A DNA stretch of 64,000 nt from the NCBI GenBank assembly GCA_900314455.1, contig OMVI01000021.1, positions 1 to 64,000 on the forward strand, in the 5' to 3' direction. Shown here one piece after another: positions 51,843-56,291 of the stretch (position 1 is the first letter of the stretch; each line of letters starts with the position of its first letter). Under the pieces are notes generated by a model that was not told the origin of the DNA, made no database searches, and was given only the letters and a program-made list of their open reading frames with translations. Both the position numbers and the translations under genes were made by a program. This DNA comes from an uncultured Prevotella sp. (GTDB lineage Bacteria > Bacteroidota > Bacteroidia > Bacteroidales > Bacteroidaceae).

Positions 51843-52838
51843 CTAACTCAGGGTAAGCATACGCTCGATAGGCTTGACTGCATCACGGGCGATGGCAGGG
51901 TCTATCTCTATTGTAGGCCAACCATACTTCAGTGAGTTGTATATCTTCTCAAGCGAGTTCTTCTTCATAAACTCACACTCGTTGCAGCTACATCCAAGAC
52001 CACCTTCGCTTACTTCTGGCGGAACAGGGATGAACGTTTGCTCAGGACAAGTGCGCTGTAGCTCGTGCAGAAGACCAGCCTCGGTAGCCACGATGAACTC
52101 TTTTATCTCTGGGTGAGCTTGTGCATACTTCAGCATTGTTGCCGTACTGCCCTTTACATCGGCAATGGCAAGGACCGGTGCCTTACACTCCAGATGAGCC
52201 ATTACAACGGCATTAGGATGCTTCTTCTTCAATTCTACGATGCCATCGACAGAAAATTTCTCATGTACATGGCAGCCACCATTCCACAATAGCATCTTAC
52301 GGCCGGTTACGGAATTAATGTAATTGCCCAGATTATAGTCCGGACCGAAGATTATCTTTTCATCCTTAGGAAAGCATCCCACAACTTTGACGGCATTGCC
52401 GGACGTCACCACCACGTCAGTAAGTGCCTTTACGGCTGCGGTAGTATTTACATAAGAAACTACTTTATATCCCGGATGCTCCTCTTTGTACTTCTTCAAG
52501 TCGGCTGCATCACAGCTGTCGGCAAGCGAGCAACCGGCTGTCAGGTCCGGACAAAGCACTGTCTTGTCGGGCGAAAGCAGTTTACAGGTCTCAGCCATGA
52601 AGTGAACGCCGCACATAACCATTATCTTTGCGTCGGTCTCGGCAGCCTTACGGGCAAGCGCCAACGAGTCACCAACGAAGTCGGCGATGTCCTGTATCTC
52701 ACCAACGGTATAGAAGTGGGCAAGGATGATAGCGTTCTTCTCCTTGCACAAACGGCGTATTTCTTTCTTCAGGTCTAAGCTCTTGTCAACAGGCTCGGTA
52801 ACGTAGCCAGCCTCTTTCCATTCTTTCTTAATCTCCAT
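51843..52838 (-). CDS. nadA: Quinolinate synthase A
   Basis: 331 residues. IILAHFYTVGEIQDIADFVG, MCGVHFMAETCKLLSPDKTV, CPDLTAGCSLADSC and the final GCSCNECEFMKKNSLEKIYN are diagnostic of NadA. Three of the cysteines hold the 4Fe-4S cluster. It condenses iminoaspartate with dihydroxyacetone phosphate to quinolinate in NAD synthesis. nadB and nadC are not next to it. The promoter (53080-53087) gives a leader of about 235 bases that overlaps the DnaA-box region, with a hairpin 20 bases before the start codon. Confidence 0.96.
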   Translation of the reverse strand: MEIKKEWKEAGYVTEPVDKSLDLKKEIRRLCKEKNAIILAHFYTVGEIQDIADFVGDSLALARKAAETDAKIMVMCGVHFMAETCKLLSPDKTVLCPDLTAGCSLADSCDAADLKKYKEEHPGYKVVSYVNTTAAVKALTDVVVTSGNAVKVVGCFPKDEKIIFGPDYNLGNYINSVTGRKMLLWNGGCHVHEKFSVDGIVELKKKHPNAVVMAHLECKAPVLAIADVKGSTATMLKYAQAHPEIKEFIVATEAGLLHELQRTCPEQTFIPVPPEVSEGGLGCSCNECEFMKKNSLEKIYNSLKYGWPTIEIDPAIARDAVKPIERMLTLS

Positions 52839-52857
52839 AATGTCTTTTCAAGTATGC

Positions 52858-52875
52858 GCCGGTTTATCAACCGGC
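52858..52875. promoter_or_regulatory. Hairpin in the nadA leader
   Basis: GCCGGTT (52858-52864) pairs with AACCGGC (52869-52875), loop of four, followed on the plus strand by TTTATTTTTATT. On the plus strand it has the form of a terminator, which would stop transcription towards leuS or shield the candidate origin; on the minus strand it is a leader hairpin 20 bases before the nadA ATG. Confidence 0.5.
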
Positions 52876-52930
52876 TTTATTTTTATTATTTCTTTTGTTT
52901 TAAATTTTAAATATAAAGAATAAGAATAAG
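52876..52930. other. AT-rich stretch, possible duplex-unwinding element
   Basis: 55 bases with only a few G or C (TTTATTTTTATTATTTCTTT and so on, ending TAAAGAATAAGAATAAG), directly beside the first DnaA-like boxes. Confidence 0.5.
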
Positions 52931-53079
52931 ACAGTGTGGAAATGTGGAAAACTTTTGTTGGTATTTCAACGATTTTCTGTTGTCAACTGGTAGTTGGCAT
53001 TTATCCACACGTTCTTTTAATTCTTACTTCTTGATATTCAGCAGTTAAAGTTACTTATCCACAATTTTGAATTACGGTG

Positions 53080-53087
53080 CAAAGATA
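53080..53087 (-). promoter_or_regulatory. Promoter -7 element of nadA
   Basis: TATCTTTG followed by C on the minus strand, inside the DnaA-box cluster. Confidence 0.5.
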
Positions 53088-53285
53088 ATAAGTTTATATC
53101 TTTTATGGAATTAAATCGGTGGAAAAGTTTTATAAAACCCTTGGAAAACGTAGTGGATATCATGGTCGGCTGTTTTCAAGAATGGATAACGTTGATAACT
53201 GAAACGTTTTCCACGCGCTTTTCCACGAGTTATCCACAGCCGATTGTGGATAAGTGTGGAAGTAGGGCGTTGCTGAGGACGAACT

Positions 53286-53304
53286 AGCTTCTGCGTTGCA
53301 GAAG
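53286..53304 (-). repeat. GCTTCTGCG-type hairpin, copy 3 (inverted)
   Basis: Same 19-base hairpin as at 50924, followed by ATACTGAACG, the reverse complement of the sequence preceding copies 1 and 2. It lies at the leuS edge of the DnaA-box cluster. Confidence 0.85.
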
Positions 53305-53343
53305 CATACTGAACGTGGATATACAATATTATATAGAAAAGTT

Positions 53344-53374
53344 TTTGTGTTTTCTTTCTTTTATTGTAAATTTG
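53344..53374 (+). promoter_or_regulatory. Promoter of leuS
   Basis: TTTG (53344-53347), 19-base spacer, TAAATTTG (53367-53374) followed by C. Ideal Bacteroidetes promoter, 61 bases before the start codon. Confidence 0.8.
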
Positions 53375-53435
53375 CAGTTTAAAATGAGGCAGTGTATGCC
53401 TTTTAGATTGAATAATAAGAAAAATCGAAATAACA

Positions 53436-56291
53436 ATGGATTACAATTTCAAGGAAATTGAGCAAAAGTGGCAGAAAGCGTGGGTTGACAACAAGACCTA
53501 CAAGGTTACAGAAGACAAAAGCAAGCAGAAGTACTACGTTCTGAACATGTTCCCGTATCCATCGGGCGCCGGTCTGCATGTAGGACACCCTCTTGGATAT
53601 ATAGCTTCGGATATTTTTGCACGCTATAAGCGTCTTAAGGGCTTCAATGTCCTCAACCCTATGGGTTATGATGCTTATGGCCTTCCTGCCGAACAGTATG
53701 CTATCAAGACCGGACAGCATCCTGCCATTACAACGGAAAACAATATAAACCACTATCGCGAGCAGTTGGACAAGATTGGATTCTCGTTCGACTGGGACCG
53801 TGAGGTTCGTACCTGTGACCCAGGTTATTATCATTGGACTCAGTGGGCATTTGAGAAGATGTTCAATTCGTTCTATTGCAACAAATGCCAGAGTGCCCAG
53901 CCGATAGAGAAACTTATCCGTCACTTTGAGGAAAAAGGAACTGAGGGCATTGATGTGGCACAGAGTGAGGAGCTGTCGTTCACCGCTGACGAGTGGAACG
54001 CTATGTCGGAGAAGGAAAAGGAGCAGACTCTGATGAACTACCGCATAGCTTATCTCGGTGAGACGATGGTAAACTGGTGTGCAGGATTGGGCACAGTGCT
54101 TGCCAACGATGAAGTTGTCGATGGCGTCAGTGTACGTGGCGGTTTCCCTGTTGTACAGCGTAAGATGCGCCAGTGGTGCCTCCGTGTTTCGGCATACGCA
54201 CAGCGTTTGCTCGACGGACTTGACACTATTCAGTGGAGCGACTCAATAAAGGAAACCCAGAGAAACTGGATAGGACGCTCTGAAGGTACAGAGGTTGAAT
54301 TCAACGTTAAGGATTCCGATAAGCACTTCACTATCTTTACGACCCGTGCTGATACTATGTTCGGTGTCACTTTCATGGTTCTTGCACCTGAGAGTGAGCT
54401 TGTTCCTGAGCTTACAACTGCTGAACAGAAAGACGAAGTAGACAAATATCTCGCTTATGTTAAGAGCCGCACGGAGCTTGAACGTATGTCCGACCATCGC
54501 GTTACGGGCGTCTTCTCTGGCTCATACGCTGTAAACCCGTTCACAGGCGATAATATTCCAATTTGGATTTCAGAGTATGTCCTCGCCGGATATGGTACCG
54601 GAGCCATCATGGCAGTACCTGCCCACGACAGCCGCGACTATGCTTTCGCCAAGCATTTCAATCTTCCTATCATCCCATTGATAGAAGGCGCAGACGTCAG
54701 CGAGGAGAGTTTCGACGCCAAGGAAGGCATCGTGACCAACTCACCGGCTGCTGGCAAGAATAGTTTGGACGGTTTCTCACTCAACGGACTTAACGTTAAG
54801 GAAGCTATTGCAGCAACTAAGAAATTCGTAACTGAGCACAACATCGGTCGTGTCAAAGTCAACTACCGTCTCCGCGATGCTATTTTCTCACGTCAGAGAT
54901 ATTGGGGCGAGCCATTCCCGGTATATTATAAGGATGGTATGCCACAGATGATACCGGAGGATTGTCTACCTTTGGAACTTCCGGAAGTTGACAAATATGA
55001 GCCGACAGAGAACGGAGAGCCACCACTCGGACGGGCTAAGAAATGGGCTTGGGACGTTGAGAAGAAGCAGGTTGTCGACAAAGACCTAATCGATAACAAG
55101 ACTGTCTTCCCAATAGAGTTATACACTATGCCTGGCTTTGCAGGTTCCTCAGCTTACTACCTCCGCTATATGGACCCTCACAACGACAAGGAACTCGTCA
55201 GCAAAGAGGCCGATGAGTACTGGCGTCACGTTGATTTGTACGTTGGCGGAACAGAGCATGCTACGGGACATCTTATCTACAGTCGTTTCTGGAACAAGTT
55301 CCTGCACGACTACGGGTACAGTTGCGAGGAGGAACCGTTCCAGAAGCTCATCAACCAAGGCATGATTCAGGGTCGAAGCAACTTCGTTTACCGTGTCAAC
55401 GAACTGTCTACGCAGGACAAACCGGTATTCGTCAGCTATAATCTTCGTAAGAACTACAAGGACGTAACACCTATCCACGTGTGGATAAATCTTGTTAAGA
55501 ACGATGTTCTCGACACTGAGGCATTCAAGAAATGGAGCCCTGAGTACAAGAATGCGGAGTTCATTCTCGAAGACGGAAAATACGTTTGCGGTTTCGCAAC
55601 GGAAAAGATGTCGAAGTCGATGTACAACGTTGTCAACCCTGACGATATAGTCAACGACTACGGAGCTGATACTCTCCGCCTTTATGAGATGTTCCTCGGT
55701 CCTGTTGAAGCCAGCAAGCCATGGGATACAAACGGTATTGACGGCTGCTTCCGCTTCCTTAAGAAGTTCTGGAACTTGTACTGGAAGAAGGATGAGGATG
55801 CTATTGTAGACGACAAACCGGCATCAGCAGAATCGCTGAAGAGTGTCCACAAACTCATAAAGAAGGTTACCGGCGACATCGAAAGTTTCTCATACAACAC
55901 CAGTATTTCAGCTTTCATGATTTGTGTGAATGAGCTTACACAGCAAAAGTGCACCAACCACGAACTTCTTCAGGACCTGGTGGTTCTCATAGCACCGTTT
56001 GCGCCTCACATTGCAGAAGAGTTGTGGCACGCATTGGGCAACAAGTCGACTGTATGCGATGCTCAATGGCCTGCCTACGATGAGAAATATCTCAAGGAAG
56101 ACGAAGTAAAGATGATGATAAGCTTCAACGGAAAAGTTCGCTTCCCTATGAACTTCCCTGTCAATGCACCTAAGGATGATGTCGAGAAGGCTGTCCTTGC
56201 CGATGAGCGCACTGGTAAATACCTTGCCGGAAAGAATATCGTGAAGGTCATAGTTGTACCTAACCGTATAGTAAATATTGTTTTGAAGTAA
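53436..56291 (+). CDS. leuS: Leucyl-tRNA synthetase
   Basis: 951 residues, within the family range. HIGH motif as HVGH (48-51) in [18 protein letters not shown]1 editing domain (about 230-440, with the Thr-rich [20 protein letters not shown] and [16 protein letters not shown]), and KMSKS near residue 724 ([17 protein letters not shown]). It charges tRNA-Leu. A zinc-type insert region ([20 protein letters not shown]) is visible. It heads a plus-strand row of genes (leuS, yitT-like, acyltransferase, rdgB, porZ) with short gaps. Confidence 0.97.

Follow-up and report, generated by a model that had tools for sequence, protein, structure and literature searches.

A very likely chromosomal replication origin between nadA and leuS in an uncultured Prevotella sp., and a conserved 27-bp element within it

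Does chromosomal replication in this uncultured Prevotella sp. begin in the gap between nadA and leuS, as a first-pass annotation of the locus proposed, and is the site kept in related genomes? The window analysed here is a stretch of 64,000 nucleotides taken from the start of contig C50 (118 kb) of a draft genome of 2,445,974 bases in 121 contigs that is 87% complete. The gap combines an intergenic cluster of DnaA boxes, an AT-rich neighbour (by composition), a strand-composition skew switch at the matching site in relatives, and a conserved element that is nearly always single-copy. The boxes, their conservation and the skew in relatives support the proposed reading, and we conclude that the nadA-leuS gap is very likely the chromosomal replication origin (oriC).

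According to the available text of PMC4755523, the one Prevotella origin paper that our open-licence literature searches turned up, Bacteroidetes commonly have their oriC at a distance from dnaA, and the P. intermedia origin, with several DnaA boxes at a GC-skew transition, also lies far from dnaA. Origins distant from dnaA are thus already known in Bacteroidota (PMC4755523), and the origin described here is therefore of a known kind. The gap resembles the first-chromosome oriC of P. intermedia OMA14 in its several boxes, in a skew transition at the matching site of relatives and in its distance from dnaA; the OMA14 origin, at 1,498,452-1,498,927, is an Ori-Finder prediction from boxes and skew, so the comparison is one by description, and the available portion of the paper names neither a neighbouring gene nor a conserved element.

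Box cluster and gene context of the nadA-leuS gap

The features of the locus, from the nadA side to the leuS side, are as follows.

51843..52838, minus strand: nadA, left flank (Pfam PF02445), transcribed outward from the origin
52839..53435, no strand: nadA-leuS gap with the predicted oriC; A+T 67%, against 51% in the whole window
52876..52932, no strand: AT-rich tract, predicted unwinding region; 89% A+T, assigned by composition, with melting presumed
52909..52932, plus strand: run of eight NAN triplets, DnaA-trio-like, beside a weak box; suggestive
52935..52943, minus strand: weak DnaA box with two mismatches (sequence match)
52943..52951, minus strand: DnaA box TTTTCCACA with one mismatch (sequence match)
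53001..53009, plus strand: exact DnaA box TTATCCACA (sequence match)
53055..53063, plus strand: exact DnaA box TTATCCACA, 23 bp ahead of the 27-bp element
53078..53104, plus strand: conserved 27-bp element TGCAAAnnTAATAAGTTTATATCTTTT, assigned by conservation, inside the predicted origin
53080..53087, minus strand: TATCTTTG, matching the −7 consensus TAnnTTTG; predicted promoter core, pointing to nadA through the presumed unwinding region
53207..53215, plus strand: weak box TTTTCCACG with two mismatches, start of an array (sequence match)
53219..53227, plus strand: weak box TTTTCCACG with two mismatches, same array (sequence match)
53230..53238, plus strand: exact DnaA box TTATCCACA, last plus box of the 11-12-bp array
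53245..53253, minus strand: exact DnaA box TTATCCACA, inverted partner of the box at 53230
53367..53374: −7-like TAAATTTG pointing to leuS, separate from the 27-bp element
53436..56291, plus strand: leuS, right flank (Pfam PF13603 and others), transcribed outward from the origin

Pfam bore out the identities given earlier to the two flanking genes. The remark that dnaA is not nearby also proved correct: dnaA is on contig C32 and the window is on C50, where no DnaA match was found; no dnaA therefore lies in the 53 kb left of the gap or in the 65 kb right of it.

Read from the nadA side, the gap contains the AT-rich tract, the NAN triplets, two imperfect minus boxes, the exact plus boxes at 53001 and 53055 with a spacing of 54 bp, the 27-bp element, and an array of three plus boxes at 53207, 53219 and 53230 spaced by 11-12 bp and followed by the minus box at 53245. 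The four exact boxes within 253 bp and the imperfect box at 52943 that the first-pass annotation had listed are all present, the last on the minus strand, and the boxes at 53230 and 53245 form an inverted repeat with a 6-bp gap. A search of Rfam matched nothing in 52600-53600.

The window holds five exact boxes, compared with a mean of 0.51 and a maximum of two in dinucleotide shuffles of the same window. The relaxed pattern TTWTNCACA occurs eight times in the window, a total reached by 20 of 100 shuffles and thus ordinary; it is therefore clustering, not number, that counts. The draft genome contains 30 exact boxes in all, and only at the nadA-leuS gap do two of them lie less than 1 kb apart; elsewhere, no two exact boxes of the same contig come closer than 2.2 kb. 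The fifth exact box of the window (55480-55488, minus strand) lies within leuS, off the cluster.

Conservation and strand-composition skew in relatives

We compared 32 nadA loci, namely our own, those of two named relatives and those of 29 other genomes (30 fetched out of 45 genomes with a match, plus L002 and L003). At least three boxes with at most one mismatch are present in the 700 bp upstream of nadA at 22 of the 32 loci, our own included; the other ten have two or fewer, among them L127, which has no upstream sequence, and L135, which has 316 bp. Alignment of 17 of the 22 (L113, L130, L132, L133 and L141 were omitted) revealed one layout at every locus: AT-rich tract, triplets (with GAT as the usual last one), weak boxes, plus boxes at a spacing of about 54 bp, and the element; boxes about 12 bp apart follow the element at many of the 17.

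The suggestion that relatives would keep the boxes in their nadA-leuS gap stood in one part and failed in the other: boxes and element are kept, but the gene pair is rare. In a scan of 79 leuS loci (four with less than 1 kb of upstream sequence; L080 omitted), nadA lies just upstream of leuS at two, and these belong to the closest relatives, L002 and L003; we therefore rejected nadA-leuS adjacency as the conserved unit. Two loci whose gap lacks nadA, L020 (9944-10186) and L022 (10494-10826), have box clusters resembling an origin some 4 kb beyond the downstream end of leuS, where no close copy of the element was found.

The conserved unit is the origin itself, most often beside nadA, and the genes on its other side vary. 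We examined 31 loci with the element, consisting of the window and 30 that were fetched as best matches and are thus a non-random set (G010, G024 and P. lacticifex among them). The left gene is nadA at 21 of the 31 and not nadA by BLAST at the other ten, eight further left genes appear DUF3108-like by eye (Pfam confirmed this for the G010 copy), and the left gene is transcribed outward from the origin at 29 of the 31. Right-hand genes are encoded on the minus strand at 19 loci and on the plus strand at nine; none was called at three. G010 carries the cluster, with the element in an exact copy, at 803.2-803.5 kb; the flanking genes there encode a family-9 glycosyltransferase and a DUF3108 protein (Pfam), and nadA lies away from them at 1.72 Mb; in G016, the cluster lies at 662.4 kb between acetyl-CoA hydrolase/transferase and DUF4254 genes (Pfam) with an 18-bp core of the element bearing two mismatches, and nadA was not found in the genome. 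Since similar clusters in G010 and G016 have neighbours other than nadA, the site is not just a nadA control region. A search of open-licence literature for oriC with nadA in Bacteroidetes gave nothing on a Bacteroidota origin, judging by titles.

A skew check had been proposed for the locus, and in closed relatives it came out in favour of an origin: raw GC skew increases from the left to the right of the corresponding site in 7/7 chromosomes tested, with an exact p < 0.01 in four. In the directed comparison of left and right, p was 0.004 each for S. baroniae B14, G071 and G024, 0.008 for G010, and 0.060 for G276 and 0.147 for G087 (6-kb stretches only); P. lacticifex showed a negligible rise (+0.007, p 0.305). 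S. baroniae B14 is the cleanest case, with 5/5 stretches negative to the left of the site and 5/5 positive to the right. For G024, G010 and P. lacticifex this test omitted the stretch containing the site and used stretches chosen after the free-fit results; G016 was not included. On our own contig, which spans 118 kb only, the cumulative GC-skew minimum falls at 13.8 kb, and fourfold T/A skew is higher by 0.109 to the right of the gap than to its left (p 0.052), with its best break at 86 kb.

Free two-arc fits used four skew measures per genome, and single p-values are to be weighed accordingly. In G024 (20 sampled stretches), the switch falls at 1485-1584 kb, with the cluster at 1509.8 kb, for three of the four measures (raw GC, p 0.003; fourfold GC, p 0.023; fourfold T/A, p 0.010). 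In P. lacticifex, the nearest closed relative (36 stretches), the fourfold T/A switch is placed at 290-310 kb, next to the cluster at 313.7 kb, with p 0.007, the smallest value obtainable in the test; raw GC and fourfold GC fitted elsewhere, at 2.38-2.45 Mb (p 0.040) and 2.30-2.38 Mb (p 0.119). Three of four measures in G010 gave 770-820 kb for a cluster at 803 kb, none significantly (p 0.23-0.37); in G016, where the cluster is at 662 kb, fourfold GC switched at 690-780 kb (p 0.037) and no other measure reached significance. Coding-strand bias was not significant in 4/4 genomes examined.

The 27-bp element and its promoter-like features

The element at 53078-53104 was absent from the first-pass annotation. 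With at most two mismatches, it is present in 153 of 299 genomes of the genus, our own included, and in 85 of the 130 with at least 90% completeness and at most 5% contamination; at this threshold it was not found in the other 45 of these good-quality genomes. The reversed element, used as a control, occurred in 0/299. In a sample of 151 genomes from the family, the element was found in 9/10 of the same genus and 0/141 of other genera, and the control matched once. It is single-copy in 152 of the 153 carriers; the exception, G070, has three copies on three contigs (C13, C26 and C30) and is perhaps a mixed assembly.

The element goes together with DnaA boxes. All 30 fetched loci have 4-11 boxes around it; the mean is 6.8, where the remaining sequence of these loci would predict 0.39. 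When the window is counted with them, 29 of the 31 loci have a box with at most one mismatch at −21 to −25 from the element. Each of the 17 aligned nadA loci carries the 18-bp core with three mismatches or fewer. A one-mismatch copy of the core that lacks the TGCAAA part occurs in P. lacticifex, 14 kb from its origin (G060:C1, about 299,649; L168:9649). The full element lies at about 313,651 in P. lacticifex and at about 2,108,971 on chromosome 1 of S. baroniae B14.

Bacteroidota primary-sigma promoters, as described in the available text of PMC7366714, carry TAnnTTTG at −7 and TTTG at −33. Like them, the element contains TAnnTTTG, on the minus strand and so in the reading direction of the left gene at 29 of the 31 loci; the motif is found in the window and, by eye, at 17/17 aligned loci. 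The two columns of the element that vary, in an alignment selected without regard to this pattern, coincide with the two unspecified positions of the motif. Unlike them, the window has a fixed AAAAGATATAAACTT where the −33 TTTG is expected. By eye, no −33 TTTG is present in the window; TTTG at a −33-like distance, 14-24 nt upstream, occurs at 10 of the 31 loci, and an ordinary promoter therefore fails to explain the fixed remainder of the element. That the element is a mere nadA promoter is unlikely: it accompanies the boxes away from nadA in G010, and the −33 TTTG is not conserved. We infer from these sequence features that a dedicated promoter or protein site may lie within the origin. Tentatively, and as a reading that falls somewhat short of probable, we propose that the element is a genus-specific origin switch: either a DnaA-tuned internal promoter whose transcription through the unwinding region aids opening, or the site of a putative new Prevotella origin protein at the −33 position. 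Searches of open-licence literature found neither a genus-specific 27-bp element of this sort nor anything on transcriptional activation of oriC with DnaA in Bacteroides.

Proposed mechanism, other readings and significance

At an oriC, DnaA assembled on its boxes extends into an AT-rich tract and opens it. In the nadA-leuS gap, binding of DnaA to the clustered boxes would melt the adjoining AT-rich tract towards nadA (about 52876-52932), and forks would then start in both directions. The promoter predicted within the element would drive transcription leftward through the melting region, and DnaA may tune that transcription from the box at 53055-53063, which lies immediately beyond the start so predicted. 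The BUS model (PMC8287927) could apply to the opening step, with box-bound DnaA reaching into the AT-rich tract and opening it: as in the BUS of the B. subtilis oriC, boxes in the gap adjoin NAN triplets next to an AT-rich tract. The available portion of PMC8287927 mentions neither Bacteroides nor Prevotella. The window fits the BUS rule (a box, a spacer of 0-16 bp and at least three NAN triplets) with eight triplets, a run that is suggestive only, as the tract is A-rich. The same caution holds for the relatives: 13 of 17 loci have at least three NAN triplets by a box, which is likewise only suggestive because shuffles reach this in 24% at a single random anchor, whereas for each real locus the best result among several boxes was used; the run in P. 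lacticifex comprises only two triplets.

Could the cluster instead let DnaA control transcription of nadA and leuS, with replication starting elsewhere? The gap does separate divergent genes, each faced by a −7-like element (for leuS, the one at 53367-53374), and nadA is the prevalent left neighbour (21/31 loci); but the cluster has other neighbours together with the element in G010 and with the core in G016, BLAST does not recover nadA as the left gene at 10/31 loci, and skew switches at the site in relatives, so we regard this as very improbable. Clustered boxes are also common to loci such as datA and DARS of E. coli, which regulate initiation, and a DnaA-storing or DnaA-recharging locus of this type would not be the origin. 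An AT-rich tract adjoins the boxes here, however, several relatives show a skew switch at the site, and there is no other exact-box cluster to act as origin in P. lacticifex or in our draft, where at 87% completeness one could be missing; this explanation is more doubtful still.

The least credible alternative, to which we assign almost no weight, is that replication of a second chromosome, plasmid or integrated element, and not of the main chromosome, starts at the gap. Prevotella species can carry two chromosomes, and for P. intermedia the available text of PMC4755523 gives the second chromosome's origin as unknown; the P. lacticifex and S. baroniae assemblies also contain further large contigs. 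Against this, the element in both species is single-copy and on the largest contig listed, with no copy on P. lacticifex G060 C2-C4 or S. baroniae G061 C2; exact boxes are present on the further P. lacticifex contigs but unclustered; and nadA and leuS are ordinary genes. The listing of exact boxes is uninformative for S. baroniae, because its origin has only one. As the further contigs lack the element, and those of P. lacticifex also lack an exact-box cluster, second replicons probably start by another route.

Returning to the reading of the gap as the chromosomal origin, what is new here is the 27-bp element, and it is the element that merits follow-up over the origin, which is ordinary in kind. 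Skew helps little, and dnaA is no marker of the origin, in fragmented drafts, and many Prevotella and Segatella genomes are of that kind; a signature that is nearly always single-copy would fix both the origin and its orientation in about half of the genus. The element would help to locate the start point in fragmentary genomes and in growth-rate estimates from read depth. Moreover, its conservation beyond the DnaA boxes poses a testable question: what binds or starts there.
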